A stretch of 64,000 nt of DNA, taken from the NCBI RefSeq assembly GCF_019083995.1, contig NZ_JAHRCU010000012.1, forward strand, positions 1 to 64,000, in the 5' to 3' direction. The translations under genes were made by a program, and so were the position numbers. This DNA comes from Roseococcus sp. SDR (GTDB lineage: Bacteria; Pseudomonadota; Alphaproteobacteria; Acetobacterales; Acetobacteraceae). Below, piece by piece: positions 7,692 through 31,301 of the stretch; position 1 is the stretch's first letter, and every line of letters starts with the position of its first letter. The notes below the pieces were generated by a model, which was not told the origin of the DNA, ran no database searches, and saw nothing but the letters and a program-made list of their open reading frames with translations.

Positions 7692-7751
7692 GATTTTCCT
7701 CGGACGGCGTTTGAGGCATCTGAACACGCCGTAAGAAAAGGGGGAAGCGAG

Positions 7752-8708: not shown

Positions 8709-8817
8709 TGCCCTCAAGCGCCGGGCGCGGCCTCCGGCCGCTTGGCTTCGCGCCGCGGCGGGTGCACCGGCGGCCAATGCGGTCTGGGCGCGGCGCGCGC
8801 TTTGCGCGCGCATCCTC
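8708..8817. repeat. Intergenic dispersed repeat, copy A (inverted relative to copy B)
   Basis: The segment is nearly identical, as reverse complement, to 42941-43051. Two blocks of about 40 and 50 bp match almost base for base; only a central stretch of about 13 bp differs. It contains two self-complementary parts: GCGCGC-AAA-GCGCGC (as read on the minus strand) and GCGGCC-GGA-GGCCGC. It sits between gnd and gntK, beginning at the gnd stop codon. The structure resembles REP-like elements; no coding content is convincing. Confidence 0.8.
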
Positions 8818-8850
8818 GGAGAGCGGCGCTCATTCTTTTGCGGCTTGCAC

Positions 8851-9354
8851 ATGACCCTCCATCTCCTCGTCATGGGCGTCTCCGGCTCGGGCAAATCCAC
8901 CATCGGCGCGAAGCTCGCGCAGGCGCTGGCGCTGCCCTTCGGTGATGCGGATGCGTTTCACCCCGCCAGCAACGTGGCCAAGATGTCGGCCGGGATTCCG
9001 CTGACGGATGAGGATCGCTGGCCCTGGCTGGATGCGCTGGGCGCCTGGCTCGCGGCGCAGACAGGCGGTGGCGTGATCGCCTGCTCGGCGCTGAAGCGCG
9101 CCTATCGGGACCGGCTGCGCGGCGCCGTGCCGGGGCTTCGCATCCTGCATCTCTCGGGCCAACCGGGCATGATCACGGCACGGCAAGCGGCGCGGGAGGG
9201 GCATTTCATGCCGCCCTCGCTCATGGCCAGCCAATTCGCCACACTGGAACCGCCCGCGCCGGATGAAGCGGCGCTGGTGCTCGACATCACCGCCCCGCCG
9301 GAGGTGCTCATCCTCCAGGCCACGGCGCAATTGCGGAGGATCGCATCATGCTGA
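8851..9354 (+). CDS. gntK: Gluconokinase
   Basis: The 167-residue protein has the P-loop GVSGSGKST at residues 9-17. [20 protein letters not shown] and [17 protein letters not shown], then [16 protein letters not shown], complete the family motifs. These are the signature motifs of GntK/IdnK, which phosphorylate D-gluconate with ATP to 6-phosphogluconate. The length is normal. The product is the substrate of the enzyme encoded upstream. TTG 8845 is in frame, but ATG 8851 gives the usual N-terminus. The gene overlaps the acyl-CoA ligase gene by 7 bp. Confidence 0.93.
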
Positions 9355-14766: not shown

Positions 14767-15765
14767 TCAGTATTCCGCGAAGATGCGGTTCAGCTCGGCC
14801 GTGTCCTTCGTCACCGTCAGGCCGAGCATGAGCAGGATGCGCGCCTTCTGCGGATTGAGGTTGTCGGCGTTCAGGAAGCCCGCCTCCCGCATCCGCGTCG
14901 TGTAGAACATGCGTCCCGAGCCCGCGCGCGTGCTGGCGGCGATGGGCGTGCCAGCGGCCATCGCGGCGGTCATCGCCTCGCCCAGCGCAGGCGTGACGAA
15001 GCTGGGCGCGAAGCCGGCGGAAACCAGGCCCTGCGCGCCGGCGGCGATGAAGGCGTCCACCGCCGCGCCATCGGCGCCGGCATAGCAATAGACGATGTCC
15101 ACGCGCGGCAGGGTGGCGAGGCCACGCACGTCGAACTCCGTCTCGCGGCCCAGCTTGCGCAGCGGCCGGCGATACCAGGCGATGGCGTCGGCGTCGGCAT
15201 GGGCGAGGCAGCCGAAATCCGGGCTGCGGAAGGTCTGCAGGCGGGAGGTGCTGGTCTTGGTCACCTCGCGCGCCGCATGCACCTCGTCATTCAGCAGCAC
15301 CAGGGCGCCGAGGCCGCGCGCGCGCTTGTCGCCCGCCACGCGGCAGGCATTGGCGAGGTTCATGCCGGCATCCGACGAGAGGCCCGAGGAAGGCCGCTGC
15401 GCGCCGACAAGGACGACCGGCACCTCCACCTTCACGGTGAGCGAGAGGAAATACGCCGTCTCCTCCAGCGTCGCCGTGCCATGCGTGATGACGATGCCGT
15501 CCAGGCCGGGAATGTCGGCCACCACCTGGTCGCAGAGGCGGACGAGTTCCAGCCACTCCTTGGGGCCAAGCGCGGTGGAGGGCACGGCCGCGTATTTCAC
15601 CGCGACCACCTCGGCCACCTCATGCACCTGCGGCCAATAGGCAAGGAGCTGCTCGGCATCCATCACCTTGCCCAGCGTCGCGTAGTCCGCGATGTCGAAA
15701 GGCCCGCGGCCGAGCGAGCCGATGGTGCCGCCGGTGCCGATCAGCGCGATTTTGGGCTTGCTCAC
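14767..15765 (-). CDS. Asparaginase-family amidohydrolase (type II-like) with altered THGTAT motif
   Basis: The 332-residue protein shows the first catalytic motif TGGTI (Thr14) and DEVHAAREVTKTSTSRLQTF with the conserved Lys170. The second signature reads VITHGTATLEETAYFL, with Ala98 where E. coli AnsB has the substrate-binding aspartate (THGTDT). The fold is thus asparaginase/glutaminase, but specificity may differ. No signal peptide is visible, so it is cytosolic. It is the last gene of a minus-strand run with 4-bp overlaps (thioesterase, CDP-alcohol transferase, oxoamine synthase). Whether it serves that pathway is unknown. Confidence 0.85.
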   Translation of the reverse strand: MSKPKIALIGTGGTIGSLGRGPFDIADYATLGKVMDAEQLLAYWPQVHEVAEVVAVKYAAVPSTALGPKEWLELVRLCDQVVADIPGLDGIVITHGTATLEETAYFLSLTVKVEVPVVLVGAQRPSSGLSSDAGMNLANACRVAGDKRARGLGALVLLNDEVHAAREVTKTSTSRLQTFRSPDFGCLAHADADAIAWYRRPLRKLGRETEFDVRGLATLPRVDIVYCYAGADGAAVDAFIAAGAQGLVSAGFAPSFVTPALGEAMTAAMAAGTPIAASTRAGSGRMFYTTRMREAGFLNADNLNPQKARILLMLGLTVTKDTAELNRIFAEY

Positions 15766-16196
15766 TTGCTGGGCTTCCTCTCGATGATGGAGGTGGTGAG
15801 GCGCGAGACGCAGAAGAGTTCACCATCCTCGCGCCGCAGCTCGATGTTCCAGACATGCACGCTGCGGCCGATGCGGACCGGCGTGCAGAGGCCGAAGGCG
15901 CGACCACCCTTGGGCAGCGGGCGCAGATGGTTCGCGTTGATCTCGAGACCGACGGCCATGAAGCCCGGCTCGCAGGCCATCATGGAGGCGACGCTGCCCA
16001 GCGTCTCGGCCAGCACGACGGAGACGCCGCCATGGATGATGCCGAAGGGCTGCACGTGACGTTCATCCACCGGCATCTCGCCGCGCAGGAAATCGGGGCC
16101 GATCTCGGTGATGCGGATGTCGAGCAGGCCGTTGACCGAGCCATGGGCGCGGCTGTGGATTTCCTCCGGGGTGGTGTGCTGGCGCCAGATGCTCAC
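15762..16196 (-). CDS. PaaI/YdiI-like hotdog thioesterase
   Basis: The 144-residue protein contains the PaaI-family motif HVQPFGIIHGGVSVVLAETL, where G-I-I-H-G-G and the later Glu form the active site. VGLEINANHLRPLPKGG precedes the closing strands. Relatives hydrolyse aromatic or acyl-CoA thioesters, e.g. 1,4-dihydroxy-2-naphthoyl-CoA. Its ATG overlaps the end of the CDP-alcohol transferase gene and its stop overlaps the asparaginase-like start, both by 4 bp. In this context it might release acyl-thioester intermediates or clean up stalled chains; that is inference. Confidence 0.87.
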   Translation of the reverse strand: MSIWRQHTTPEEIHSRAHGSVNGLLDIRITEIGPDFLRGEMPVDERHVQPFGIIHGGVSVVLAETLGSVASMMACEPGFMAVGLEINANHLRPLPKGGRAFGLCTPVRIGRSVHVWNIELRREDGELFCVSRLTTSIIERKPSK

Positions 16197-16894
16197 GCGT
16201 CGTTCTCCTCGGCCCGGGCATCGGCCCGCGCCTGCCGTTGGTCGGCGAGGCCCGCCGCACGGATGTCACGGCGCAGGACGAAGCCGAAATTCACCAGCAT
16301 GATGCCGGCCCACAGCAGGGAGAGTCCATCCAGCACCGAGAGGCCGAGCCCAGGCACCATCGCGAGGAACACGCCGGGCAGCAGATAGAGCAGCGTCGCG
16401 AGGAGCATGAAGCAGACGCGCAGCTCCGTCGTGCCGACCGTGTCGATCGCGAGGTTGTGCACGCCGGTGATGAGCATCCGCGCCAAAGCGAGATTGCTCA
16501 GCAGCATGTACAGCGCAAGCAGGAGGAAGGGGATGGGCAGGGAAACGAGGCCCGAGGCTGCGAAGCCCACCGTCACCAGCGTGTAGGAGATCAGGTCCAC
16601 GCCATTGTCCAGCACGAAGCCCTGGACCTTGCGCTCGATGCGGCGGTGGCGGGCCACCTTGCCGTCCAGCGAATCCCCCAGCCAGTTCAGCCCGAAGCCC
16701 AGGAAGACCAGGAGGAGCGAGAAGAGGCTCGAAACGCCGAGCGCGAAGCCCGCGGCACCAAGCGCCGCGCCGAAGATGCCGATCCCGGTGAGCGTATCGG
16801 GGCCGATACGGGCCGGCACATGATGCACCATGGCATCGAGCAGCCGCGCCTCAGGCTTGGCCAGCCAACCCCCATTCACGCGTCGCGGGATCAC
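16193..16894 (-). CDS. CDP-alcohol phosphatidyltransferase family protein
   Basis: The 233-residue membrane protein has about six helices and an intact CDP-OH-P motif: Asp74, Asp77-Gly78, Ala81-Arg82, Gly92, Asp96 and Asp100 (D-x2-D-G-x2-A-R-x9-G-x3-D-x3-D). Such enzymes move a phospho-alcohol or phosphatidyl group from a CDP-activated donor to an alcohol, as in phosphatidylglycerol or ceramide-phosphoinositol synthesis. It lies directly behind the oxoamine synthase (4-bp overlap), so it may attach the polar head group to the lipid made by this cluster. No assigned acceptor is visible. Confidence 0.9.
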   Translation of the reverse strand: MIPRRVNGGWLAKPEARLLDAMVHHVPARIGPDTLTGIGIFGAALGAAGFALGVSSLFSLLLVFLGFGLNWLGDSLDGKVARHRRIERKVQGFVLDNGVDLISYTLVTVGFAASGLVSLPIPFLLLALYMLLSNLALARMLITGVHNLAIDTVGTTELRVCFMLLATLLYLLPGVFLAMVPGLGLSVLDGLSLLWAGIMLVNFGFVLRRDIRAAGLADQRQARADARAEENDA

Positions 16895-18240
16895 GACCGA
16901 TCGAGGATCGTCGCCACGGCGTCGAGAGCGGTGTCGATCTGGGCGCGCTCATGCGCCGCCGAGAGGAAGAAGCGCAGACGCGAGGTGCCCTTGGGTACGC
17001 CCGGGGAGCTGACGGGGAAGCTGTAGATCCCCATCCGCTCGAGCTCCTGGGCCATGGCGAAGGTGCGGATGTCGGTGCCGAGGATGACGGGTGTCACGCC
17101 GAAGCCCCAGCTCGACCCCACATCGAGGCCGCGGGCGCGGGCGCCGGCGAGGAAATGCGCGCCATTGGCCTGGAGCGCCGCCACGCGCTCCGGCTCGCGG
17201 CGCATGATCTCGAGCGCCTTGAGCGAGGCGGCGGCGACGGGCGCGGGCATGCCCACGCTGTAGACCAGGCCGGGCGCGCGGGCCTTCAGGATGTCGATCA
17301 GCACCTGGCTGCCGCAGACATAGCCGCCGCAGCCGACCAGCGTCTTGGAGAGCGTGCCGAACCAGATGTCCACGCGGTTCGGGTCGATGCCGCAATGCTC
17401 GGCGATGCCACGGCCCGTGGCGCCGATCACGCCGAGCGAATGGGCTTCATCCACCATCAGCCAGGCCTGGAAACGCTCCTTGATCTCGAGGAGGCGGAAC
17501 ATGTCCGGCCCGTCGCCATCCATGGAGAACAGGCCCTCGGTGACGATCAGCACGCGCTCGAAGAGATGGCGCGTCAGCGTCAGGTAGTTCTCGAGGTCGT
17601 CCAGATCATTGTGGCGGAAGGATTTGCGCTGGCAGCGCGCACCCTGCGCGCCGACCACGACGCAATTGTGGATCAGCGAGTCATGGATGATCAGGTCCTT
17701 GGGACCCAGGATCGTCTCGATGACGGAGGCCGCGGTGGCATGGCCACTGACGAAGAGGGCACCGGCCTCGGCCTCGTAGATTTCGGCCAGCGCGGCTTCG
17801 AGCGCGCGATGCACTGGCCGCTCGCCGGAAGTGATGCGGCTGGCGGAGACGCTGGTGCCATAGCGCCGGCCGGCCTCCTCATGGGCGGCGAGGACTTCCG
17901 GATGCCCGTTCAGCGCGAGGTAGTCGTAGCTGGAGAAGTTCAGAAGCTCCCGCCCCTCGATGGAGGTGCGGGTGGCGGCGCGGCCGTCATGGACGCGATA
18001 ATAGGGATTGGTGAAGCCGAGCGCGGGGCCGACCTGACGCTCCAGCAGGATCTCGCGATAGGCCGGCAGGCTCTCAAAGGAGAGATCGTGCTTCGGCACA
18101 TCCTGGCGCAGGGCACGGGTGCGAGGCTGACGCCGGTCGGTGACATGCGCCGAGGGAAGCCCGGCCGCAGGCGCAGGCGCGGCCACCTCGCGACCGAGGC
18201 CCGTCACATCCAGCTCCGTCGGGGGCAGCCTCAGGTTCAT
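16891..18240 (-). CDS. Alpha-oxoamine synthase (serine palmitoyltransferase/KBL/BioF family)
   Basis: The 449-residue PLP enzyme has an N-terminal extension of about 60 residues, then the fold-type I core. HDSLIHNC holds the cofactor-stacking His, TEGLFSMDGD follows, DEAHS at 264-268 contains the Asp/His pair, and GTLSKTLVGCGG carries the Schiff-base Lys299. These enzymes condense an amino acid with an acyl thioester, losing CO2 and releasing the chain as an alpha-amino ketone. Positioned next to a PKS that lacks a thioesterase, this one probably off-loads the polyketide from the ACP. It heads a four-gene operon; ATG 18240. Confidence 0.92.
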   Translation of the reverse strand: MNLRLPPTELDVTGLGREVAAPAPAAGLPSAHVTDRRQPRTRALRQDVPKHDLSFESLPAYREILLERQVGPALGFTNPYYRVHDGRAATRTSIEGRELLNFSSYDYLALNGHPEVLAAHEEAGRRYGTSVSASRITSGERPVHRALEAALAEIYEAEAGALFVSGHATAASVIETILGPKDLIIHDSLIHNCVVVGAQGARCQRKSFRHNDLDDLENYLTLTRHLFERVLIVTEGLFSMDGDGPDMFRLLEIKERFQAWLMVDEAHSLGVIGATGRGIAEHCGIDPNRVDIWFGTLSKTLVGCGGYVCGSQVLIDILKARAPGLVYSVGMPAPVAAASLKALEIMRREPERVAALQANGAHFLAGARARGLDVGSSWGFGVTPVILGTDIRTFAMAQELERMGIYSFPVSSPGVPKGTSRLRFFLSAAHERAQIDTALDAVATILDRS

Positions 18241-18263
18241 CAGCGCATGGTCTCACTTACAAT

Positions 18264-18302
18264 GTTACATATAACGCGGCAGTTCTGAACCGAAAGTGAA
18301 CC
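18264..18302. promoter_or_regulatory. Candidate control region of the oxoamine synthase operon
   Basis: Just upstream of the minus-strand ATG at 18240 lie a near-palindrome GTTACATATAAC (18264-18275) and two direct copies of TGAACC (18286-18291 and 18297-18302) spaced 11 bp, about one helical turn. The region is AT-rich for this genome. The repeats are seen; that a regulator binds them, and that a promoter lies here, is inference. Confidence 0.35.
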
Positions 18303-18474
18303 GTGGGGGGCATGGATTCAAGCGAAAGATCAACCGCTTGTAGATGCTAATGCATGTTCGGAAGAAATTCGAGACTCCAAGAGGCTATTGAGGAGACGTC
18401 CCTACGGGTGGGCGGACGCATCAGCCTGGCGATCACGCAGCGCAGCATAAAGCTTGGGCATGCGCCTGAATTGA

Positions 18475-18511
18475 GAGGCCCTCTTCAAATCGGGCCTCGA
18501 CTTCGTTTTTT
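18475..18511 (+). terminator. Hairpin with T-run, plus-strand orientation, between PKS and oxoamine synthase genes
   Basis: GAGGCCC (18475-18481) pairs with GGGCCTC (18492-18498) across a 10-nt loop. TTTTTT at 18506-18511 follows on the plus strand. Both flanking genes are on the minus strand, so a plus-strand terminator here would end an antisense or small RNA starting in the 295-bp gap. As a minus-strand structure it would sit 38 bp after the PKS stop without a T-run. The rest of the gap (18303-18474) shows nothing I can name apart from GANTC sites at 18315 and 18373. Confidence 0.4.
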
Positions 18512-18535
18512 GGCTGGCGGCTGCTCCGGTCCCGA

Positions 18536-21500
18536 TCATTGGGATCTTTGCGCCGAAAGGGTGCCCACGATCCGGCCGACAAGGTCACGGATCGAGCGGT
18601 TGCCCCCCATCGTCGTCAGCGGCAGTTCCACGCCCGTCCGCTTCTCCACGCCCAGGCGCAGCTCCAGCGCCATGAGGCTGTCGAGGCCGATGTCGATCAG
18701 CGGCCGGTCGGGTTCCACCGCCTCCGGCGGCAGGCGCAGGATGCGGGCCACCTCCTCCCGCATCAGGCCGAGCAGCGCCTCGGTGGCCGCCTCGGGCGAG
18801 AGGGCGGAGAGGTCCAGCACCTCATCACCGCCCTTGGGGCCGCCCCCGGCGCCGGCCAGGCCCTGCTCGGCGAAGACATCCGCGAAATAGGGCGAGCGCA
18901 GCACGGCGAGCTTGTTCGCAGCGGGCGACCAGCGGATCACGGAATAGGCGCTGACCGGGGGTGCCGCGGCCGGGTCGGCCAGCAGGGTGCCCAGGTGGTG
19001 CAGCGCCTCGGCCGAGGTGACGCCGGAGACGCCGGTGGCCGCGCGCAGGCGTTCGGCCAGGCCGCGCGTGCGGGCGATGACGCCGACATCGGAGATGGCG
19101 CCCCAGCAGACCGCCAGCGCCGGCACGCCCCGCGCGCGCAGCCCCAGCATCGCGCCCTCGAGGAAGGCATTGCCCACCACATAGGAGGATTGGCCGGGAC
19201 TGCCCACGAAGGTGGTCGAGGAGGAATAGGCGACGAGGTATTGCAGCGCGTCGCCCGCGATGGCGGCTTCCAGCGCGCGCATGCCGGTCACCTTGGGGCC
19301 GAGCACGCGGGCGATCTTCTCGGGCGTGAGGCCGAGGATCATCCCGTCCTCCAGCACCATGGCGCAGTGGATCACGCCGGCGATGGGGCCGAGTTCGGTG
19401 CGCCAGCGGGCGAAGGCGGCGGCGACGGCAGCCGCGTCGGTGATGTCCAGCGCCTCGACGCGCAGGTCGGTGCCAGCGGCCCGCGCACGCGCGACGCGCG
19501 GGGCCATCGCCTCCTCCACCGCACCGCGGCGGGAGACGGCGACGACCGTGCCCGCGCCCTGCGCCGCGAGCCAGAGCGCGGTCTCGAGCCCGAAGCCGCC
19601 GGTGCCGCCCAGCACCACATGCACGCCCGGCGCCGGCCGGAAGGGGGCGGCCTCGGGGGTGGGCGGCAGGGCGACGGAAGCCGGCCGCACCAGGATCTTG
19701 CCCAGGTGGCCGGAGGCCTGCATCAGCCGGAAGGCATCCCCCACGCGGCCGCCCTCGAAGGCGAGGTAGGGGATGGGCCTCAGGCGCCCCGTCTCGAACA
19801 TCACCATGATGACGCTGACCATGCGGCGCACCGCCGCCGGGTCATGCGCCAGGAGCTGGTCGATATCGGCGCCGATATAGGTGATGTTCCTGACGAAGGG
19901 ACGCAGTCCGAGGCGCGTGTTGTCGTAGAAGTCGCGCTTGCCGAGTTCGACGAAGCGGCCGAAGGGTTTCACGAGGCGCAGCGCGGCCCGCATGGCGTCG
20001 CCCGCCACCGAATTCAGCACCACATCCACGCCGCCCACCGCGGCGCGGATCCGGTCCTCGACATCGGTCGCGCGGGAATCCACCACGTGGTCGGCGCCCA
20101 GGTGGCGCAGCAGGGCGCGCTTCTCGGCCGTGCCCGCCGCGGCCACGACGATTGCGCCATGCGCCTTCGCGATCTGCACCGCCGCCATGCCGACGCCGCC
20201 GGCGGCCCCCTCGATGAGCACCGTCTCACCGCGCTTCAGCCCCGCGCGCTCGATCAGCCCGAACCAGGCGGTGACGAAGGCCACGGGCACCGCAGCCGCC
20301 GCTTCCTCCGCCAGCACCTGGCCCAGAGGGAACAGGCGGTCGGCCGGCAGGGTGAGGTGCGAGGCGAAGGCCTGCGCGCCAAAGCCCATCACGGGGTCGC
20401 CCGGCTCCAGCCCCTCGACGCCTTCGCCCGCACGCAGCACATGGCCGGCGAATTCGAAGCCGAGCGAGCCGCTGGTCAGCCCCTCGCCCAGGATCTCGGA
20501 ATCCAGCACGCCCAGGCCCAGCATCACGTCACGGAAATTGAGGCCGGTCGCGGTGACGGCGACCTCGACCTCGCCCGGCGCGGGGGCCAGGCGCGGCCCG
20601 GCGGCCCAGGCGAAATCATCCAGGCCCCGCGGACCGATGCCGAGCAGGCTGCGCTCGCCCTCCGCCAACGCACGGGCGCGCGCCTCCATCCGGCGCGTGG
20701 CGCGCGGCACCAGGACGCCCCCCGCGGTCAGGCGGAGCTCACGCTCCAGCAGCGGCTCGGCGATGTGGCGTTGGAGCGCGGCCCTCACCGCCTCGGGTGC
20801 GGCATCGGGCGTCCAGGCCAGCAGGCAGGTCTCGACGGCGGGAAACTCGTTCATCAGGCAGCGCGCATAGCCGGCCATGGCCTGCGACATGGGCGTGGGC
20901 AGGCCGTCCGCGCCCTGCTCCAGCGCCACGTAAAGCCGCGCCGTCGCCTCGCCCTCGCTGAGCGCGATGGCCAGCTCACGCAGGCGCAGCATGCGGGCCG
21001 AGAGTGCCGCCGCTTCATCCGGAGCGGTGGCGGGGCCGGTTTCGATCAGCACGGCAGGGCCTTCGGCGGCCGGCACGGCGGCCACCCAGGCGGCGGCCTC
21101 GGCCGCGGTGACGATCGGCTGGAGGGCGAAGCCCGGCAGGTGGTCGGCGAAGCCCGTCTCCTCGCCGAGCAGGGCAAGGGTGCGGTGCAGGGGGGGTTCG
21201 GCCTCCGTCGGCCGGTGGGGCGGCTGCGCGAAAACCAGCCGCTCGGCGGAGCCCGGAAAGCTCGCCTGGAGCAGCGGGACGAAGCCGTGCTGCGTGAGCG
21301 CCTCATCCACCTCGGAGGGATAGGGCCAGACGCCGACGGGCTGCTCGGGCGAGGGCGAGAAGCGGAACCAGCCGGGTGTGGCGGCGTGCAGCACGTCGAT
21401 GGCCGGGTGGTGCGGCGGGATGGCGACCAGCAGCGGCGGCGCGGCATCGCCGAGGCCGGTCAGCAGGTCGAGCGGGCTGGGCTGCCCGCCATCCAGCGGC

Positions 21501-24500: not shown

Positions 24501-25945
24501 ACATAGGCGGCGGCCAGCTCCCGCAGGGCGGCCTTGCTGTGCGCGGAGATGACGAGGTAGCGCGCGGCGGCGGCGGCGGCGGCGGCGGGCGCGGGCGTGG
24601 CGGCGGGCGCGGTGCCGATCACCGCATGGGCGTTGGTGCCGCCGAAGCCGTAATTGCACAGGCCCGCCAGCAGCGGCCCCTCGGCCGCCAGTTCCACCAT
24701 CCCGGCGGCCGGGGCCAGGCCCAGGCCCGCCACGTCGATGTCCGGGTTCAGCTCCTCCAGATAGAGGGTCTTGGGGTAGCGCCGGTGCTTCAGCGAGAGG
24801 ACGAGTTTGGCCAGGCCCGCCATGCCGGAGGCCGATTCCAGATGGCCGATATTGGACTTCACCGAGCCCACGGGCAGTGGCGCGCTGCGGTGTCGGCCCA
24901 GCGCCTCGCCGATGGCGCGCGCCTCGATCGGATCGCCCACGCGGGTGCCCGTCCCATGGGCTTCGACGAAGGCCAGCGCGTCGGGCGAGATGCCGGCCTG
25001 GCGGTAGATCGCCTCCAGCAGATCCCGCTGGCCGGCGACGGACGGCAGCGAGATGCCGTTGGTGCGGCCGTCGGAATTCACGCCGATCGCGTGCAGCGTG
25101 GCGCGGGGGGCGGCGGCGCCCCAGGCGGAACCCAGGCCGGAACGGGGCCGGGCCAGCACCAGGGCCACCGCGCCTTCGGCCCGGACATAGCCGTCACCCT
25201 TCGCGGAAAAGGGCCGGCATCGGCCGGTGGGGGAGAGCATGCCGGCGCGGGAGAAGCCGATGAAGGGCGCCGGCGAGGAGAGCATGTTCACGCCGCCGAC
25301 GATGGCGAGCTCGATGCGCCCGGCCTCCAGCGCCGCCGCCGCCTGGGCGAGTGCCACCACGGAGGAGGAGCAGGCGGTGTCGAGGGTGAGGCTCGGCCCC
25401 TTCAGGTCATAGGCGTAGGAAATCCGGTTGGAGACCAGGGCCAGGCTGTTGCCCGTCATGAAATGCGCGTCGAGCGCGCAGACGTCGAGCAGCGGCACGT
25501 CGGCATAGTCGGTGGCCGAGGCGCCGAGGAAGACGCCAACCTGCTTTCCGGCGAGGCTGGAGGGGGCGATGCCGGCATCCTCCAGCGCCTCCCACGTCAC
25601 CTCGAGCATGACGCGCTGCTGCGGGTCCATCTGCTCCGCCTCACGGCGGGACATGCCGAAGGCCGCGGCGTCGAAGAAGAGACCATCCTCCAGATAGCCG
25701 CCGGCGAAGGTATAGGCGGTGCCGCGCGCCGTGGTGTCCGGGCTCAGGAAGCGCTCCGGCCGCCAGCGATCGGCGGGCGAAATGTCCCGCACGGCGGAGC
25801 CCCCGGCCTCCAGCAGCGACCAGAGGGCGCGGAGATCGCCAGCCCCCGGGAGCCGGACGGCGAGGCCGAGAATGTCGAGCGGAACGGGAAAGTTCAGGAT
25901 CAACGCAGTGTCCAGGAGGCTAGGGGTGGCGAGGATGGGCCCCAT
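18536..25945 (-). CDS. Single-module highly reducing type I polyketide synthase (KS-AT-DH-pseudoMT-ER-KR-ACP)
   Basis: The 2469-residue protein has a KS at about 20-445 (Cys192 in DTACSSS, His330 in HGTGT, His368 in NIGHLE) and an AT at 545-870 (GHSVGE Ser636; YPFHS at 741-745, malonyl-like). The DH spans 925-1200 (His959 in HRVDGQVILP, Asp1125 in DAAFH). About 400 residues at 1210-1600 sit where a C-methyltransferase would be but lack a SAM motif. The ER is at 1780-2085 (NFRDVMLGLG, GAAGGVGMAA), the KR at 2105-2290 (GGTGGFG, Tyr2255) and the ACP at 2385-2455 (Ser2423 in GLDSL). There is no thioesterase. All catalytic residues are present, so it should work iteratively to give a saturated chain, probably released by the neighbouring oxoamine synthase. 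Confidence 0.95.
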   Translation of the reverse strand: MGPILATPSLLDTALILNFPVPLDILGLAVRLPGAGDLRALWSLLEAGGSAVRDISPADRWRPERFLSPDTTARGTAYTFAGGYLEDGLFFDAAAFGMSRREAEQMDPQQRVMLEVTWEALEDAGIAPSSLAGKQVGVFLGASATDYADVPLLDVCALDAHFMTGNSLALVSNRISYAYDLKGPSLTLDTACSSSVVALAQAAAALEAGRIELAIVGGVNMLSSPAPFIGFSRAGMLSPTGRCRPFSAKGDGYVRAEGAVALVLARPRSGLGSAWGAAAPRATLHAIGVNSDGRTNGISLPSVAGQRDLLEAIYRQAGISPDALAFVEAHGTGTRVGDPIEARAIGEALGRHRSAPLPVGSVKSNIGHLESASGMAGLAKLVLSLKHRRYPKTLYLEELNPDIDVAGLGLAPAAGMVELAAEGPLLAGLCNYGFGGTNAHAVIGTAPAATPAPAAAAAAAARYLVISAHSKAALRELAAAYVEPVEQLGAAAVAAAAQVGRDRLPHRLVLDLAQGGAVAPALMEPETPRPDVALGEAIARQARVAFVFSGNGTQWPGMGRAAYAGNAHFRAAFDEWAARIRAAGGICPLETMLAEDVAQRIAATSAMQPLLMAIQLSLCAALAAEGLRPDVVLGHSVGEVAAAAASGALTPEDAARLIVVRSAGQEAVQGLGGMAVLACDAARAAEIIAEAGAEAGTGEVEIAARNAPGSTTLSGTGRGLAEVLRTARRARIASVTLDVAYPFHSRILDPGREETVAALAGLTPGPTRVPMISAVTGSEVAGTALDGAYWWSNIRAPVLFQDAVTTALERAELFIEIGPRPILGALVADVARHAGMRAAAMATLTQARGPEEADPIARILLEAVVRGAPLATPEPAPQSTPQSTPSAAASPAPGVRDLPLMRWDRQEYVISATPEAYGIYGPSHGGGPLHPLIGVRVAPIGAEWRQILSVPTQPFLAGHRVDGQVILPATAYMEMMVAVGREVHGTSRLRILDLDILRALSLDQPQEVSILWHEAERVVEIRARPRLDAGAGFTLHARGTVLPETAAQPHPRPLPPVLASGGGATHDATAIYAATAACRLGYGGAFQVATGARVAEQTVITEIAGVAPDLGFFADTLVFEPGSYDAAFHGIFLGIPQKPGQVLGELPVRIGRLSLFTPGEPVTRSVARLVRQAADARVFDIELLSAEGRLVGRGEGVVMRRVTFAAWREADRIIEQRLQPWRAGPVELCAAMAEALDQPIPMPDTSARAALIGLALEIAGHVVSRVEEGRTSERSPDLMGPIAPPARVIWRALTEARQEAEQMAGGDAAPVLPGRLAGQPAAPASPLVSPLGAALAGFAARHPGASADLRLALHALEALPAILATGQDAPPNADLLDAAESASVFAAPSLDALATVVGRLAAPGEGGRLRLLLLEPGLAGLLPRLLPRLRAGEISLAILAADVEAAERLLARAGAARAVPVLGPETPPGGAVFDLALCAAVMPLDGGQPSPLDLLTGLGDAAPPLLVAIPPHHPAIDVLHAATPGWFRFSPSPEQPVGVWPYPSEVDEALTQHGFVPLLQASFPGSAERLVFAQPPHRPTEAEPPLHRTLALLGEETGFADHLPGFALQPIVTAAEAAAWVAAVPAAEGPAVLIETGPATAPDEAAALSARMLRLRELAIALSEGEATARLYVALEQGADGLPTPMSQAMAGYARCLMNEFPAVETCLLAWTPDAAPEAVRAALQRHIAEPLLERELRLTAGGVLVPRATRRMEARARALAEGERSLLGIGPRGLDDFAWAAGPRLAPAPGEVEVAVTATGLNFRDVMLGLGVLDSEILGEGLTSGSLGFEFAGHVLRAGEGVEGLEPGDPVMGFGAQAFASHLTLPADRLFPLGQVLAEEAAAAVPVAFVTAWFGLIERAGLKRGETVLIEGAAGGVGMAAVQIAKAHGAIVVAAAGTAEKRALLRHLGADHVVDSRATDVEDRIRAAVGGVDVVLNSVAGDAMRAALRLVKPFGRFVELGKRDFYDNTRLGLRPFVRNITYIGADIDQLLAHDPAAVRRMVSVIMVMFETGRLRPIPYLAFEGGRVGDAFRLMQASGHLGKILVRPASVALPPTPEAAPFRPAPGVHVVLGGTGGFGLETALWLAAQGAGTVVAVSRRGAVEEAMAPRVARARAAGTDLRVEALDITDAAAVAAAFARWRTELGPIAGVIHCAMVLEDGMILGLTPEKIARVLGPKVTGMRALEAAIAGDALQYLVAYSSSTTFVGSPGQSSYVVGNAFLEGAMLGLRARGVPALAVCWGAISDVGVIARTRGLAERLRAATGVSGVTSAEALHHLGTLLADPAAAPPVSAYSVIRWSPAANKLAVLRSPYFADVFAEQGLAGAGGGPKGGDEVLDLSALSPEAATEALLGLMREEVARILRLPPEAVEPDRPLIDIGLDSLMALELRLGVEKRTGVELPLTTMGGNRSIRDLVGRIVGTLSAQRSQ

Positions 25946-26092
25946 GCGGGTGCCTGCAAAGGGTGGTCTGGTGCGGTGGGTTCAGTCCGGGTGCATCATC
26001 CCCTGAACGCGCTGGGGCCGGCCCCGCGGCCCGCCCGGTGTTTTCCTTTCCCACTGGTCCACGCCGGGGTTCCGGCATGCCTCTTCGGCCTT

Positions 26093-26168
26093 TGCAAAAG
26101 ACCGTGCAAAAGGCTGTACGCGCGCGAAAGGACATGAAGATTGCCTTCCGCTTACAATCGGATACGCT
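26093..26168. promoter_or_regulatory. Divergent promoter region between PKS and reductase operons
   Basis: The 286-bp gap separates minus-strand PKS from the plus-strand operon and is less GC-rich than its flanks. It contains a direct repeat TGCAAAAG at 26093-26100 and 26105-26112, spaced 12 bp. A possible sigma70-like pair follows for the plus strand: TTGCCT at 26141-26146 and TACGCT at 26163-26168 with a 16-bp spacer, 64 bp before ATG 26232. The repeats could be operator half-sites controlling both directions; that is inference. Confidence 0.35.
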
Positions 26169-26231
26169 ATTTCCGTTGGCGGATTCAAGTTTCTCCGACC
26201 CCCCCTTCCTCCCAAGGGGCCGCCCGCGGGC

Positions 26232-27116
26232 ATGTCCCGGGGAGGCACCCAGCCTGGAGCCCGGACCGTGACCGAGGCGCCACCTGCCCTCCCCGAACAT
26301 GCGCATGCCCTGCAGGCCAGCCAGCCGGGCTGGGCGCTCGTCACCGGCGGCTCGAGCGGCATCGGTGAGGCCCTGGCGGCCGGGTTGCTGGCGCGCGGCT
26401 GTCACCTCGTCCTCGTCGCGCGGGATGCCGGCCGGCTGGAGGCCGCCCGGGCGCGCCTCGGGACGCGGCGCACCGAGGCCCTGGCGCTCGATGTGGGCGA
26501 TGGTCCGGCGGTGGCCGCCGCCATGGCCGGGTTGCTGGCGCGCCTCGGTCCGCCCGCCTGGGTCGTGACCAGCGCCGGCATCGCCTGGCCCGGCCGCTTC
26601 CTGGACCAGCCGCTGGCCGAACATGAGGCGCAGCTGCGGACCAACGCCCTCGGCACCGTGAACGTGCTGCATGCCCTGGCCCCGGCCATGGCGCAGGCCG
26701 GGCGGGGGCAGGTCGTGCTGGTCGCCTCGGCCGCGGCACTCGGCGGCTTTGCCGGCTATGCCGCCTATGCGCCCTCGAAATGGGCGGTCCGCGGCCTGGG
26801 GGAGGTGCTGGAGCTGGAGCTTGGCGCCCATGGGGTGCGGGTCCTGACCGCCTTCCCGCCCGATACCGAGACGCCGCAGCTGGCGGAGGAGCGCGCGCGG
26901 CGCCCGGCCTTCACCGCGCGCTTCGCTGCCGGGCACAAGGCGCTCAGCCCCGGCTTCGTGGCCGAACGCATCCTGGCCGCCGCCGACCGCGGCGCGCGCC
27001 GCGTGGCGCCAGGCTTCGGCGCCGGCCTGCTGCTCTGGGCCGGGCGACCCTGGGCGCGCTATCTGGAGGCCGTGCAGCGCCGGCTGCTGCGCCGGCACCC
27101 CGAGGATTCCCGCTGA
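26232..27116 (+). CDS. Short-chain dehydrogenase/reductase, 3-ketosphinganine-reductase-like
   Basis: The 294-residue protein starts with about 30 unstructured residues, then ALVTGGSSGIGEALAAGLLA (NADPH Rossmann motif at 38-45). Ser166 and Tyr179-x3-Lys183 (YAAYAPSKWAVRG) form the active site. FPPDTETPQLAEE at 208-220 matches the YPPDTDTP motif of eukaryotic 3-ketodihydrosphingosine reductases (KDSR/Tsc10). The C-terminus is hydrophobic, suggesting membrane association. In a cluster with an oxoamine synthase, the natural role is reducing the alpha-amino ketone to an amino alcohol. GTG 26268 is an alternative start. The P450 gene begins 1 bp after its stop. Confidence 0.88.
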   Translation: MSRGGTQPGARTVTEAPPALPEHAHALQASQPGWALVTGGSSGIGEALAAGLLARGCHLVLVARDAGRLEAARARLGTRRTEALALDVGDGPAVAAAMAGLLARLGPPAWVVTSAGIAWPGRFLDQPLAEHEAQLRTNALGTVNVLHALAPAMAQAGRGQVVLVASAAALGGFAGYAAYAPSKWAVRGLGEVLELELGAHGVRVLTAFPPDTETPQLAEERARRPAFTARFAAGHKALSPGFVAERILAAADRGARRVAPGFGAGLLLWAGRPWARYLEAVQRRLLRRHPEDSR

Positions 27117-27117
27117 C

Positions 27118-28515
27118 GTGACGCGCCTTTCGCTGCAGCCGCCGATCATCGAGGAGGCCGGCCCGGGCTGGCTCATCCCCGCGCATCCCGCGCCGCTGGA
27201 GAGCGAGCCGGGGAGCCTGCGCCTGGCGCTGATGGCGCGGCACAGCCTGATCGGCGTCTGGACGCGCGAGACCTATGCCGCGCGCGACTTCGCCATGCGG
27301 CTGCTGCGGCGGCAGATCTGCGTCTTCAACGACCCGGCCTCGATCAAGGCGGTCTTCGTCAGCGGCGCCGATGTCTTCGAGCGCAAGGGCCCCATGATGC
27401 GCCGCGCCCTGGCGCCGCTGCTGGGCGACGGGCTGTTCATCTCCGACGGCGAGACCTGGCGGCGGCGGCGGCCGCTGGTGGCGGACATCGCGCACAAGAC
27501 GCAGGTGCCCTTCTACGCGCCCATGATGACCGGCGCGGTGACGGACATGCTGGCCGGCTGGCGCGGTGGCGAGGTGATCAGCCTGCTGCCCGCCATGGCG
27601 GGGCTGACGGCGCAGATCATCGCGCGCTCCATCTTCGGGACGAGGCTGGGGGCGGAGGCGCTGGAGGGCATCGTCCAGGGGTTCGGTCGCTACCAGGCGG
27701 GGATCGACAGCTTCAACCTCCCCTTCTTCCTCGGTGCGGCGGAGGGCTGGCCGGTCGGCCGCGGCCAGGCCATGCGCGCCGCCATCGCCCGCGTGCATGG
27801 TGTGGTCGAGCATGTGATCACCGAGCATGTCGCCGGGCGGGGCGAGCATGGCTCCATGGTGGACATGCTGGTGCGGCGCATGCAGCGCAGCCCGGAGCTG
27901 GGGCTCGACGTGCAGGCGCTGCGCAACGAGGCGGCGACGATCTTCATGGCCGGGCACGAGACGACGGCGGCGACGCTGAGCTGGGCCTTCTATCTGCTGG
28001 CCAAGGCGCCCTGGGCCGAGGCCGCCTTGCATGCCGAGCTGGATGCGGTGCTGGGCGATCGCGAGCCCATGGCCGAGGACGTGCCCCGCCTGCCCTACGC
28101 GCGTGCCGTGATCGAGGAGGCGTTGCGCCTCTATCCACCCGTCCCCATCCTCCCGCGCCAGGCGAGGGAGGCGACCAAGGTGGGCGGGATCGCGGTGGAG
28201 AAGGATGCGCTGGTGCTGGTGGTGCCCTGGCTCCTGCACCGCTCGCCCGATCTCTGGGAGCAGCCGATGCATTTCCGGCCCGAGCGCTTCCTCGAAGGCC
28301 CGGCGCCGGTGCCCTACAGCTACATCCCCTTCTCGGCCGGGCCGCGCATTTGCGCCGGGCTGAATTTCGGCCTGACCGAGGCGATCCTCTGCCTCGCCAT
28401 GGTGGCGCGCGCCTTCCGGCTGCGCCTGGCCCCCGGCTTCGTGGCAGAGCCGGTCTGCCGCCTTTCGCTCAGGCCGCATGCGCCCATCATGGTCCGGCTC
28501 GAGGACCGCGCATGA
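27118..28515 (+). CDS. Cytochrome P450 monooxygenase
   Basis: The 465-residue protein has AGHETTA in the I-helix at about 278-284, EEALRLYPP (ExxR) and the heme-binding FSAGPRICAGLNFG, with the thiolate Cys near residue 412. There is no N-terminal membrane anchor, as usual for bacterial P450s; the PERF motif (FRPERFLEG) is intact. It probably hydroxylates the lipid or polyketide chain; no redox partner gene is nearby. GTG 27118 is the start, one base after the reductase stop, and the end overlaps the acyltransferase ATG (ATGA), so the genes are co-transcribed. Confidence 0.94.
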   Translation: MTRLSLQPPIIEEAGPGWLIPAHPAPLESEPGSLRLALMARHSLIGVWTRETYAARDFAMRLLRRQICVFNDPASIKAVFVSGADVFERKGPMMRRALAPLLGDGLFISDGETWRRRRPLVADIAHKTQVPFYAPMMTGAVTDMLAGWRGGEVISLLPAMAGLTAQIIARSIFGTRLGAEALEGIVQGFGRYQAGIDSFNLPFFLGAAEGWPVGRGQAMRAAIARVHGVVEHVITEHVAGRGEHGSMVDMLVRRMQRSPELGLDVQALRNEAATIFMAGHETTAATLSWAFYLLAKAPWAEAALHAELDAVLGDREPMAEDVPRLPYARAVIEEALRLYPPVPILPRQAREATKVGGIAVEKDALVLVVPWLLHRSPDLWEQPMHFRPERFLEGPAPVPYSYIPFSAGPRICAGLNFGLTEAILCLAMVARAFRLRLAPGFVAEPVCRLSLRPHAPIMVRLEDRA

Positions 28516-29429
28516 GGGAGGAGACGGACCCCGCCGCCACCTTGGCCGCCATCCTGGCCGACCGGCGCGCGCCCACGCTGCGCAACTGGCTGCTGGATGC
28601 CTGGGAGATCGGGCAATACCTGGTCTTCCGCCACATGCCGATCGACCTCGGCCCGCGCCTCGCCGCCCCCGGCATCATCGCCTATATCCGGCGCGAGCGG
28701 CCCTGGGTGCTGGAGCGGGCGCGCGCCAACCTCCGGCGCCACCGCCCCTGGGCCAGTGACGACCAGATCGAGGCCTGGGTGGAGGCCTTCCTGCAGAATA
28801 TCGGCGCCTATATCGGCGAGACGCCGACCATCGGCCGCTACATGGCCGCCGGCCGCCTCGAGATCCAGGTCGCCGATGGCGCGCGAGAGGCCTTCCGGCG
28901 CGGCGGCGTCATCGCGCTGTGCCTGCATACCGCCAATTGGGAGGTGATGCTGGAAGCGCTGAAGGCGCTCGGCCTCAGCGCCGCCTGCGCGCCCATCGAG
29001 TGGGAGACGCGCGGCCAGACCTGGGTGATCAACGACCTGCGGCGCCGCAACGGCATGCGCTACCTCACGCGGGACCATGCGGGCGTGCGCGCCGCTTACA
29101 AGGAGGTGAAGGAGGGCGGATTGCTGGCCATCTTCGTGGATGAGGCGCGCCACGGGCGGCTCATGGCGCCGCTCTTCGGCCGGCCGCCGCATGCCAATGG
29201 CAACCTCGCCATCGCGGCCAAGCTCGCGCGGCACACCGGCGCGGCGATGGTGCTCTGGCACACCACCCGCCTGCCGGGACGGCGCTTCCGCGTGACGATC
29301 AGCGACGTGATCGAGCTGCCCCAGGAACCGAAGGGCCTGCTGGACGACGTCGCCTTCCTGAACGGCGTGATCGAACCGGTGGTGCTGGAGCATCTGGAGC
29401 AGTGGTTCTGGCTCGATGACAGCTTCTGA
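28512..29429 (+). CDS. LpxL/HtrB-family lysophospholipid acyltransferase
   Basis: The 305-residue protein carries LCLHTANWEV, the H-x4-E catalytic motif of the LpxL family, at His139/Glu144. IFVDEARHGRLMAPLFGRPP and AIAAKLARHTGAAMVLWHTT are the later conserved blocks. It lacks the clear N-terminal membrane helix of lipid A acyltransferases. These enzymes transfer acyl chains to a lipid hydroxyl or amine at the inner membrane. Its place between a P450 and a GNAT gene, away from lipid A genes, suggests acylation of the cluster's amino-alcohol product. ATG 28512 overlaps the P450 stop. Confidence 0.85.
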   Translation: MREETDPAATLAAILADRRAPTLRNWLLDAWEIGQYLVFRHMPIDLGPRLAAPGIIAYIRRERPWVLERARANLRRHRPWASDDQIEAWVEAFLQNIGAYIGETPTIGRYMAAGRLEIQVADGAREAFRRGGVIALCLHTANWEVMLEALKALGLSAACAPIEWETRGQTWVINDLRRRNGMRYLTRDHAGVRAAYKEVKEGGLLAIFVDEARHGRLMAPLFGRPPHANGNLAIAAKLARHTGAAMVLWHTTRLPGRRFRVTISDVIELPQEPKGLLDDVAFLNGVIEPVVLEHLEQWFWLDDSF

Positions 29430-30045
29430 CGCACCCCTGGTGGTCGGCCCGCTGATCCCCGGGCCGGTGGGCGAGCAGGTGCTGGAACTGGCGGCCACCG
29501 GGCGCGCCGGCCTCGCTGCGCTGCTGGGCGACGACGCGGCACGCCACGCGCTGTTCCGGCCGGGAATGCGGGCGGACCGCTTCCTGGTGGCGACGGTGGG
29601 CGGCGAACTCGCCGGCTATCTCAGCCTGAAATACGCAGGAAAGGGGCCCTTCGCGCCGCGCCTGGCCGATTTCATCCGCGGCCAGGGCTGGCGGCGCGGG
29701 CTGCACGCCTGGGCGGTGTTCTCCTGGATCGAGGCGCGCACCCGGCCCCGGCCCGGCGGCGCCTATATCTACGGGCTCGACGTGCTGAAGGCCTGGCGCG
29801 GGCACAAGCGCGGCCGCGACGTGGGGGGCGCGCTGATGGCGGCCGCGGTCGCGGAGGCGACGCGCCTCGGCTACCGGAGCCTGGACATGGAGATCCGGCG
29901 CCCCGCCATCCGCGCGCTGGTGCGGCGCGCCGGCGCCGTCCCGGTGGTGGCCCCGCGCCTCTCGCTCGCGCGGCTGCTGATGGCGACGGCGGGCGATTAT
30001 GAGCGCATGACCATCGCCCTGACGCCGCCCGGCGCCGGTCCATGA
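29416..30045 (+). CDS. GNAT-family N-acyltransferase
   Basis: The 209-residue protein shows a GNAT core: YIYGLDVLKAWRGHKRGRDV then GGALMAAAVAEATRLGYRSL, where the R/K-x-x-G-x-G/A loop binds the acyl-CoA pyrophosphate. The beta-strand LDMEI and a C-terminal ERMTIAL strand complete it. It overlaps the acyltransferase gene by 14 bp and the glycosyltransferase by 4 bp. In Caulobacter a GNAT-like protein has been reported as the bacterial ceramide synthase, so N-acylation of a sphingoid-like base is possible here; that link is inference. Confidence 0.8.
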   Translation: MTASDAPLVVGPLIPGPVGEQVLELAATGRAGLAALLGDDAARHALFRPGMRADRFLVATVGGELAGYLSLKYAGKGPFAPRLADFIRGQGWRRGLHAWAVFSWIEARTRPRPGGAYIYGLDVLKAWRGHKRGRDVGGALMAAAVAEATRLGYRSLDMEIRRPAIRALVRRAGAVPVVAPRLSLARLLMATAGDYERMTIALTPPGAGP

Positions 30046-31301
30046 CGCCGCTGGCGCTCGATGTTTCGCGCCTGCTGTGGCGCGCGGTGCGCCCGGCGCC
30101 GGGCGGCATCGACCGGGTGGAGCTGGCCATGGCGCGCCATCTGCTGCGGGAGGAGCCGCAATCCCGCTTCGTCTTCACCGATGGCGGCGTGATCCGCAGC
30201 CTCACCCCCGCCACGGTGCGGCGCCTGACGGAAGAGGCCGCGGCGCGCTGGCGCGGCAGCGTCGATGACGAGGGCTCGCGGCGTGTCGTGGCCTATCTGG
30301 CCAGCGAGGCGCGCGTGTTTCCTCCGGCGCGCCCCCGCCTGACGGACCGGCACGTGCCGCTGGTGGATGCCGGGCGCAATCTCCGGGCACAGCTCAGCTA
30401 CCAGCGCCGGGGCATGCTGCTGGAGGCGCCGGAGGCGCTGCAGGGCGCGATCTATGTGAACCTCTCACAGCGCAACCTGGATGAGCCGCGCCTGCTGGAG
30501 GCGCTGCCGCCGGGCGGGCGGATGCTCGCCTGCCTCTATGACGCCATCCCCTTGCGTGATTCCGCCCTGGCCGCGCCGGGCAGCGATGCGCGCATGCTGC
30601 GGATGCTGCGGCATCTCGCCGCACGACAGGCGCGGCTGGTGACGATCTCCGAGGCTTCGCGCACGCAGATCACGGAGGCGGCCGCGCGCCTTGGCCTGGG
30701 GCTCCCTGCCATCGCGGTGGTGCCGCCGCCCCTGGCCGAGCCCTTTCTCGAACGGGACAGCCCGCCTGGCACGGCCCAGCGCTTCTTCCTGGTGCCGGGG
30801 CTGCTGACACGCCGCAAGAATCTGGGCCTGCTGGCCGAGGCCTGCCGCCGCCTGCCACGAGGCGCCGGCTTCGACATCCTGCTGGCGGGCGCGCCGGGGC
30901 TGGATGCCGCCCCGGTGCTGGCCGGGCTGGGCGAGACGCCCGCCGGCATCCGGCTGCTGCGCGCCGAAGGGCTCAGCGACCTGGCCATGGCGCGGCTGAT
31001 GCGCGGCGCGATCGCCGTGCTGGCGCCCTCGCTCGAGGAAGGCTTCGATTATCCGGTGCATGAAGCGCTGGCCCTGGGCGTGCCGGTCATCGCCTCCGAC
31101 ATTCCGGCGCATCGCGAATATGTGGCAGGGGTGGCGGAATTGCTCGATCCGCAGGACGCGGATGCCTGGGCCGCCGCGCTGGCGGATTTCGCCACGGCCG
31201 GGCCGCGCCATGCGGCGGCTTGCGCGGCGGCCCAGGGCTTCCTTCCCGCCAGCCCCGGCAAACTCCTGAAAAAACTGATCGATCTGGCGCGCATGGCTTG
31301 A
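30042..31301 (+). CDS. GT-B glycosyltransferase (family 4-like)
   Basis: The 419-residue protein has an N-terminal region starting MTPLALDVSRLLWRAVRPAP, with GGIDRVELAMARHLL. In the C-terminal donor domain, FFLVPGLLTRRKNLGLLAEA precedes PSLEEGFDYPVHEALALGVP, the E-x7-E motif that binds the nucleotide sugar. VIASDIPAHREYVAG follows, as in GT4 enzymes. It is the last gene of the plus-strand cluster (4-bp overlap with the GNAT gene), so it may glycosylate the lipid product, but the acceptor is unknown. No membrane helix is visible. Confidence 0.88.
   Translation: MTPLALDVSRLLWRAVRPAPGGIDRVELAMARHLLREEPQSRFVFTDGGVIRSLTPATVRRLTEEAAARWRGSVDDEGSRRVVAYLASEARVFPPARPRLTDRHVPLVDAGRNLRAQLSYQRRGMLLEAPEALQGAIYVNLSQRNLDEPRLLEALPPGGRMLACLYDAIPLRDSALAAPGSDARMLRMLRHLAARQARLVTISEASRTQITEAAARLGLGLPAIAVVPPPLAEPFLERDSPPGTAQRFFLVPGLLTRRKNLGLLAEACRRLPRGAGFDILLAGAPGLDAAPVLAGLGETPAGIRLLRAEGLSDLAMARLMRGAIAVLAPSLEEGFDYPVHEALALGVPVIASDIPAHREYVAGVAELLDPQDADAWAAALADFATAGPRHAAACAAAQGFLPASPGKLLKKLIDLARMA

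Follow-up and report, generated by a model that had tools for sequence, protein, structure and literature searches.

A gene cluster in Roseococcus sp. SDR (Acetobacteraceae), at positions 14,767 to 31,301 of a 64,000-nucleotide stretch of contig NZ_JAHRCU010000012.1 (hereafter the window, i.e. the whole stretch of DNA that was analysed), combines a highly reducing type I polyketide synthase (PKS) with an alpha-oxoamine synthase (AOS), a CDP-alcohol phosphotransferase (CDPT) and a short-chain dehydrogenase/reductase (SDR). Taken as a whole, we somewhat favour reading it as a pathway to a polyketide-built sphingoid that becomes a phospho(glyco)lipid, probably anchoring a polysaccharide exported by an ABC transporter. 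The sphingoid-base core, already known in kind, is very probable; the anchor role for a polysaccharide is a tentative proposal, for which the scales stand nearly even.

Every reaction, the substrates of the tailoring enzymes and the anchor role are predictions drawn from sequence. The PKS would work iteratively on its own acyl carrier protein (ACP) to build a long, largely reduced acyl chain and, having no thioesterase (TE) domain, would pass it to the AOS, where condensation with an amino acid, probably L-serine, would give a 3-keto long-chain base. The SDR would turn the ketone into sphinganine, and the CDPT would add a phospho-alcohol to the 1-hydroxyl or couple the base to a lipid phosphate. 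An LpxL-like enzyme, perhaps together with a GNAT protein, may acylate the amine or a hydroxyl (the LpxL-like protein could thus supply a second chain), a cytochrome P450 may hydroxylate the chain and a glycosyltransferase (GT) may attach the first sugar. The resulting phospho(glyco)sphingolipid would serve as the membrane anchor or acceptor for an ABC-transporter-exported surface polysaccharide, taking over the job of (lyso-)phosphatidylglycerol plus KpsS/KpsC in E. coli group 2 capsules; phosphoglycerol sphinganine would look like lyso-phosphatidylglycerol.

Predicted sphingoid-base enzymes and their conservation

Gene content, motifs, phylogeny and neighbourhoods were observed directly, and the genes named in a first-pass annotation of this DNA were found in place with intact catalytic motifs. 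The PKS (2469 aa) has the domain order KS-AT-DH-ER-KR-ACP with complete motifs (DTACSS, HGTGT, KSNIGH, GHSVGE, HRVDGQVILP, GGVGMAAVQ, GGTGGFG, SSSTTFVGSPGQSSY and GLDSL), and a Pfam/NCBIfam scan gave no match to a TE domain, in agreement with the complete reducing module without thioesterase described in that annotation. Its AT domain carries a YPFH motif, presumably of the kind linked to malonyl-CoA, and the protein is 33-39% identical to the PKSs of annotated rkp/capsule loci. The AOS holds all three residues attributed to it (Lys299, Asp264 and His267), which are common to the aligned proteins resembling serine palmitoyltransferase (SPT). The SDR carries the expected FPPDTETP, which we take to be a KDSR motif and which is exactly shared with RkpH. 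The proposed chemistry, in which the PKS builds the chain, the AOS frees it as an aminoketone and the SDR reduces it, is backed by homology to the SgaA/SgaB system of Pseudomonas.

In a tree of 72 AOS rows (19 of 91 were omitted for size; quick search, SH-aLRT support only, several long branches flagged), the window AOS fell in a 56-row clade (SH-aLRT 98) with RkpG and with Pseudomonas, Burkholderiaceae and other PKS- or capsule-linked AOS, PfSgaB being represented by the AOS of Pseudomonas sp. TMW 2.1634 (locus L099). The 13 AOS rows from clusters of the window type grouped together (SH-aLRT 100), and 12 SPT-like alphaproteobacterial proteins formed a separate group (SH-aLRT 100); the latter were the top scores to NCBIfam NF047603, one of the 12 lying above the model cut-off, which was exceeded in one of 142 genomes. 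The window AOS thus stands outside the SPT-like group of the tree and scores under the NCBIfam cut-offs for SPT, and the window's genome gave no match to the SPT model (E 1e-120). Identities as BioF, KBL or 5-aminolevulinate synthase (ALAS) were also rejected: the protein is below the cut-offs of all 11 NCBIfam models that it matched, and the genome encodes ALAS separately, on contig C5 (655.7 bits), this being the single other match to the AOS query in its own genome. AOS matches (E 1e-60) were found in 104 of 299 genomes of the window's order, part of which were checked for a neighbouring PKS.

The nearest annotated kin of the SDR are a Shinella SDR (40%) and RkpH (39%), not the SDR of Pseudomonas TMW 2.1634; it had no PDB match at E 1e-20. 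FPPDTETP is absent from the Pseudomonas and Burkholderiaceae SDRs, and therefore two kinds of SDR serve PKS-AOS loci. The CDPT has the complete D..DG..AR..G...D...D motif, as annotated, with a Pfam score barely over the cut-off (23.8 versus 22 bits). Its predicted model (pLDDT 84.9) has choline/ethanolamine phosphotransferases, enzymes whose acceptor is a lipid alcohol, as top PDB matches; sequence profile and fold both lean towards them, which gives a weak hint to the head-group step, but AF2299 and PIP synthases score close behind, so that neither profile nor fold singles out one donor. The LpxL-like protein starts at an ATG at 28512 and has HX4E, and a paralogue (35% identical) lies on contig C32 of the same genome. 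A sequence search with the GNAT protein returned nothing useful; its modest model (pLDDT 68.5) has a GNAT fold, and it is 36% identical (E 4e-22) to the GNAT of the Pseudomonas PKS/AOS/capsule locus L099.

The first-pass annotation had made its pathway model depend on co-conservation of these genes, which was borne out for AOS and CDPT and is less full for the LpxL-like and GT genes. Among the best 80 of 323 CDPT relatives, retrieved with seven CDPT queries against the genome contigs, an AOS lay directly upstream of the CDPT in the 13 top-scoring ones (E 1e-37 or better; four of these, L147, L148, L153 and L155, coincide with loci already represented in the query alignment) and within the stretch in 17 of the 80. 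Named carriers of PKS-AOS-CDPT are Rubritepida flocculans, Roseococcus pinisoli, Falsiroseomonas algicola, Roseomonas ponticola and several metagenome-assembled genomes (MAGs). The locus arrangement is therefore not due to chance, since PKS-AOS-CDPT with the divergent SDR recurs in related genomes. Judged by coordinates, seven of ten genomes, counting that of the window, have LpxL-like and GT genes at the cluster; matches in F. algicola and R. ponticola reached just 34-36%, with a location not tied to the cluster, and an Opitutaceae MAG gave no match to either. L032, L034 and L035 share the GNAT gene with the window; none was found in L036 or L037.

Several relatives show further variation: i) the PKS-AOS-CDPT of the Opitutaceae MAG (L152) is very near those of R. 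ponticola and F. algicola (short AOS branches), a likeness due to horizontal transfer or to a mis-binned contig; ii) a Roseomonas MAG (L034, 13878-14408) matches the P450 only at its start and the LpxL-like protein only at its end, which would fit loss or mis-assembly of the part between; iii) genome G310 holds two PKS-AOS loci (L106 and L107) near the window's branch, one with KpsE/ABC homologues, a GDP-mannose dehydratase and an RTX/DUF4214 protein, the other with an LpxL-like match and a GT; iv) L051 and similar Acetobacteraceae loci have a commoner second order, GT-PKS-AOS-KpsS-like, often by a TE and asparaginase pair, with a formyltransferase-like gene separating AOS from the KpsS-like gene in L051; v) an LpxC-like deacetylase gene lies between PKS and AOS in L101 and L102 (Burkholderiaceae plasmids) and in L120.

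Surface-polysaccharide genes around related clusters

The capsule connection, which the first-pass annotation had missed, is the strongest functional clue. As a capsule/export marker we counted any homologue of KpsC/S, KpsE, KpsM, Poly_export or KpsF; marker and lipoteichoic acid (LTA)-synthase classes were assigned by tblastn (E 1e-12, 60 bits) against the proteins of six annotated plasmid loci, with class names derived from product names (of the KpsC/S set, RkpJ alone was checked against Pfam). Left out of the counts were the six source loci, four duplicates, three short loci (L062, L064 and L065), the short copies L070-L097 and the side stretches L126-L143 and L224-L238; the loci counted are not independent, many being from the window's family, and those with CDPT often cover 10 kb either side only. 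A marker was present in 29 of the 40 PKS+AOS loci without CDPT, versus none of 11 SPT-like loci and none of 20 arbitrary 20-kb stretches (Fisher 6e-11). With sources and duplicates kept, markers were at 34 of 45 loci without CDPT and 4 of 18 with it. AOS loci without a PKS in the stretch had a marker in 5 of 11 cases, and four distant AOS loci had none. KpsC/S homologues were found in 25 of the 40 loci without CDPT but 0 of 15 with it (p 2.5e-5); LTA-synthase homologues showed the same direction (8/40 versus 0/15) without significance (p 0.09). The many related clusters that lie amid capsule genes suggest that the lipid may be an anchor for surface sugars.

Clusters of the window's own type were also found beside export genes. 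Roseococcus pinisoli (G234), which is grouped with the window's genus, has a Poly_export gene between SDR and PKS, and KpsE-like and ABC-permease genes after the CDPT, followed by a Stealth protein gene. In F. algicola and R. ponticola, KpsE/ABC homologues lie ~7 kb from the CDPT; downstream in F. algicola are GT, sugar-dehydratase-type, methyltransferase and ABC/KpsE homologues. The window's own genome holds homologues of a KpsM/T/E/D export set on contig C9, where ABC permease, ATPase, KpsE-like and Poly_export genes are consecutive (the KpsE-like open reading frame (ORF) by tblastn only, with no Pfam match). On the other hand, PF05159 (KpsC/KpsS, RkpJ-type) was absent genome-wide from all ten genomes searched, i.e. 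seven with the CDPT cluster, the window's among them, and three with PKS-AOS of a neighbouring branch; the same search did find it in E. coli and B. subtilis, used as controls, and RkpJ scored 412 bits. A Kdo-linked group 2 capsule was rejected on this ground.

Among sphingomonads, CDPT relatives were found in ABC export loci (Sphingomonas and Novosphingobium), with no AOS in the stretch. A GT adjoins the S. koreensis relative. CDPT neighbours on Novosphingobium and Sphingobium plasmids included no recognisable sphingolipid or capsule genes.

Alternative products and gene neighbours

Several points weigh against the favoured reading: i) this gene set would equally be required to make a free sphingolipid of the outer membrane; ii) the absence of KpsC/KpsS means that any polymer is of another kind than the standard Kdo-linked capsule; iii) the window cluster contains no export or polymerase gene, and no capsule-export gene was found among 30 further window ORFs, chosen by composition between 1321 and 58568 and Pfam-scanned (the GT is one of them), which are mostly ordinary metabolism; iv) only 3 of the 15 PKS+AOS+CDPT loci had a marker, the other 12 having none in the stretch read, and 11 of the 40 loci without CDPT had none either; v) CDPT relatives without AOS had a marker in 9 of 63 cases and none in 54, so that the CDPT family is not capsule-specific; vi) the active-site residues of the AOS do not settle the use of serine; vii) the poly-Kdo KPS of S. 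meliloti 1021 reportedly has a 'phospholipid anchor', which may be a glycerophospholipid; viii) the sphingomonad link presupposes that these bacteria make ceramides.

The foremost competitor is a free phospho- or glyco-sphingolipid of the outer membrane that carries no polysaccharide, like the ceramide phosphoglycerates of Caulobacter or the sphinganines of Pseudomonas. We regard it as unlikely but worth serious attention: it would fit the lack of export genes around the window cluster, the single GT and the 12 CDPT-type loci without a marker, and acylation by the LpxL-like and GNAT proteins would yield a two-chain, ceramide-like lipid. Moreover, the main text of Peters et al. 2025 reports that P. 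fluorescens MYb115 accumulates free sphinganines and proposes phosphoglycerol (PG) sphingolipids (PMC12134224). What speaks for an anchored polysaccharide instead is the occurrence of the same AOS clade in capsule/export loci far above controls, including a same-genus relative with the same cluster type.

A secreted sphinganine analogue of the fumonisin or sphingofungin kind, i.e. a diffusible amino-polyol signal or inhibitor from PKS, AOS, KDSR and P450, is very improbable. The cluster does hold a P450, and fungal clusters with KDSR homologues are described in passages of two papers as making PKS-derived sphingolipid-like mycotoxins (PMC12134224, PMC7711896); however, with a CDPT, an LpxL-like protein and a GT the product looks more like a lipid of the membrane, Pfam revealed neither an exporter nor a regulator in the cluster, and the AOS clade is bacterial and capsule-linked. 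That the PKS and AOS products are unrelated and their neighbourhood a syntenic accident is the least credible of all, as PKS-AOS adjacency recurs across many genomes and families and both genes are needed for lipids in Pseudomonas (PMC12134224, main text), even if the 295-bp PKS-AOS gap is poorly conserved across six aligned sequences and the neighbouring TE and asparaginase genes are probably bystanders of this very kind.

Features of the cluster and the evidence for each (window coordinates)
Feature	Position	Strand	Basis
Type II L-asparaginase-like protein	14767..15765	-	PF00710/PF17763
Hotdog-fold TE	15762..16196	-	PF03061, TIGR00369
CDPT, head-group transfer predicted	16193..16894	-	PF01066, motif, model
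PLP-dependent (pyridoxal phosphate) AOS, RkpG-type clade	16891..18240	-	catalytic residues, tree, active-site alignment
Highly reducing type I PKS (presumably iterative), SgaA/RkpA/WcbR-like	18536..25945	-	Pfam/NCBIfam domains, catalytic motifs
Divergent intergenic region, PKS/SDR	25946..26231		may hold promoters
SDR, 3-ketosphinganine-reductase-like	26232..27116	+	FPPDTETP
Cytochrome P450, predicted chain hydroxylase	27118..28515	+	PF00067, haem motif FSAGPRICAG
LpxL/HtrB-like acyltransferase, predicted N- or O-acylation	28512..29429	+	PF03279, HTANWE
GNAT acyl/acetyltransferase	29416..30045	+	PF00583 weak, GNAT fold
GT4-type GT	30042..31301	+	PF13692/PF00534

The cluster is laid out as two divergent gene runs either side of a shared 286-bp region, with a single sigma-70-like match at 26129-26158 (0.5 expected over the whole scanned region). 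Nearly all adjoining genes had been said to overlap or touch; this is so for most, since the minus-strand AOS, CDPT, TE and asparaginase-like genes overlap their neighbours by a few bases and the plus-strand genes from SDR to GT touch or overlap, but PKS and AOS stand apart. A small ACP gene hidden in the gap between these two was rejected, as the gap is poorly conserved.

The inventory of the first-pass annotation, sound for the genes that it named, passed over the TE and the asparaginase-like gene. TE matches (E 1e-35) occurred in 20 of 120 genomes, 18 of the 20 TE loci hold an asparaginase, and TE and AOS lie on different contigs in four genomes (G049, G064, G006 and G052). TE and asparaginase are therefore probably bystanders of the cluster, and roles as off-loader of the PKS and as amino-acid supplier, respectively, were set aside.

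Elsewhere in the window, a UDP-GlcNAc 2-epimerase gene lies at 35896-36975 (+), ~4.6 kb past the GT, and homologues are also near the cluster in genomes G222 and G241. An 812-aa protein is encoded at 6465-8903 (-); its C-terminal half is a PLP decarboxylase resembling MfnA/GAD, and its ~420 N-terminal residues have no family assignment.

Comparison with known systems

We regard it as conceivable, though on balance doubtful, that SgaABC, rkp-1, wcb and the window cluster are one pathway to a polyketide-built phospho-sphingoid anchor for ABC-exported polysaccharides, with two head branches. The first would employ an LTA-synthase-like phosphoglycerol transferase and KpsS/KpsC, PG-sphinganine mimicking lyso-phosphatidylglycerol; the second, that of the window, would employ CDPT and LpxL-like acylation without KpsC/KpsS, and in sphingomonads would be fed from ordinary ceramides. 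Two elements may be new: equating the PKS-AOS route to sphingolipids with the pathway to the rkp/wcb capsule lipid, and the variant that has a CDPT but no KpsC/S. Neither was found stated in the open-licence literature, mostly titles, abstract starts and passages (PMC12220298 included), which makes a weak negative. If there is one pathway, PG-sphinganine, a proposed lipid, becomes a direct candidate for the lipid that anchors capsules in rhizobia and elsewhere among bacteria, and many species at present regarded as free of sphingolipids would need a second look as producers. With its lack of KpsC/KpsS, the window variant points to a second route to such an anchor.

Fungal fumonisin and sphingofungin clusters, which have AOS and P450, resemble the window in a PKS-derived sphingolipid-like product and a KDSR homologue; we know of none with a CDPT, an LpxL-like acyltransferase or a capsule context. 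The Caulobacter-type SPT ceramide pathway shares the oxoamine synthase entry step and is described, in passages of PMC11324152, as proceeding through later reduction and N-acylation; unlike it, the window has an AOS outside the SPT-like group, a chain predicted to come from the PKS and an SDR of KDSR type. In E. coli, according to passages of PMC7694667 and PMC11041684, KpsS/KpsC extend (lyso-)phosphatidylglycerol with a Kdo linker, and export of the polymer is the task of KpsMT.

The first-pass annotation knew of PKS and AOS pairs but of no precedent for the full gene set; a lack of precedent was not supported: a PKS+AOS+KDSR-homologue sphinganine route is already in PMC12134224, and rkpA/G/H are homologous. 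According to the main text of that paper, MYb115 requires both the PKS SgaA and the AOS SgaB to make its C24, C26 and C28 sphinganines, PfSgaB uses L-serine with acyl-CoAs in vitro (SPT activity), a KDSR homologue SgaC is proposed, and 6,101 homologous clusters occur, with Burkholderia dominating; that main text contains none of the words rkp, wcb, capsul and polysaccharide. Our comparison was made with the Pseudomonas sp. TMW 2.1634 locus (L099), standing in for MYb115, whose locus-tag steps PKS-AOS-(four tags)-SDR are the same. The four intervening genes of TMW 2.1634 are annotated as phytanoyl-CoA dioxygenase, capsular polysaccharide biosynthesis, GNAT and LTA-synthase family, and the tag numbers suggest that MYb115 carries the same four. 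Like the window, the Sga system has a mono-modular PKS, an AOS and a KDSR homologue in one locus; the window differs in its CDPT, P450, LpxL-like protein, own GT and RkpH-type SDR, in having no LTA-synthase-like gene nearby and in belonging to a different bacterial class.

Annotated plasmid loci with PKS/AOS/SDR homologues are S. meliloti rkp-1 and loci of Shinella, Paraburkholderia, Caballeronia and a Pseudomonas. The rkp-1 locus shares with the window a homologous PKS (RkpA, 38%), AOS (RkpG, 45%) and SDR (RkpH, 39%); the literature passages available describe it as making a lipid carrier or anchor for KPS, and leave the chemical nature of that lipid unspecified. In S. meliloti Ak57 pSymB (L098), an alkaline-phosphatase/sulfatase-family match runs in two frames at 16335-17863, between rkpH and rkpJ, where the incomplete gene table lists no gene. 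No RkpI-like sulfatase/LTA-synthase gene was found among the window ORFs scanned or in any of the 15 PKS+AOS+CDPT loci. Compared with rkp-1, the window lacks RkpJ and adds CDPT, P450 and an LpxL-like protein. Its PKS was also likened to the wcbR-type capsule PKS of Burkholderia, the loci compared being Paraburkholderia and Caballeronia plasmids. As to a place in a capsule or export locus, the picture is mixed: none was seen around the window cluster, the cluster of its same-genus relative lies in one, two other species have export genes nearby, and an export set lies elsewhere in the window's own genome.

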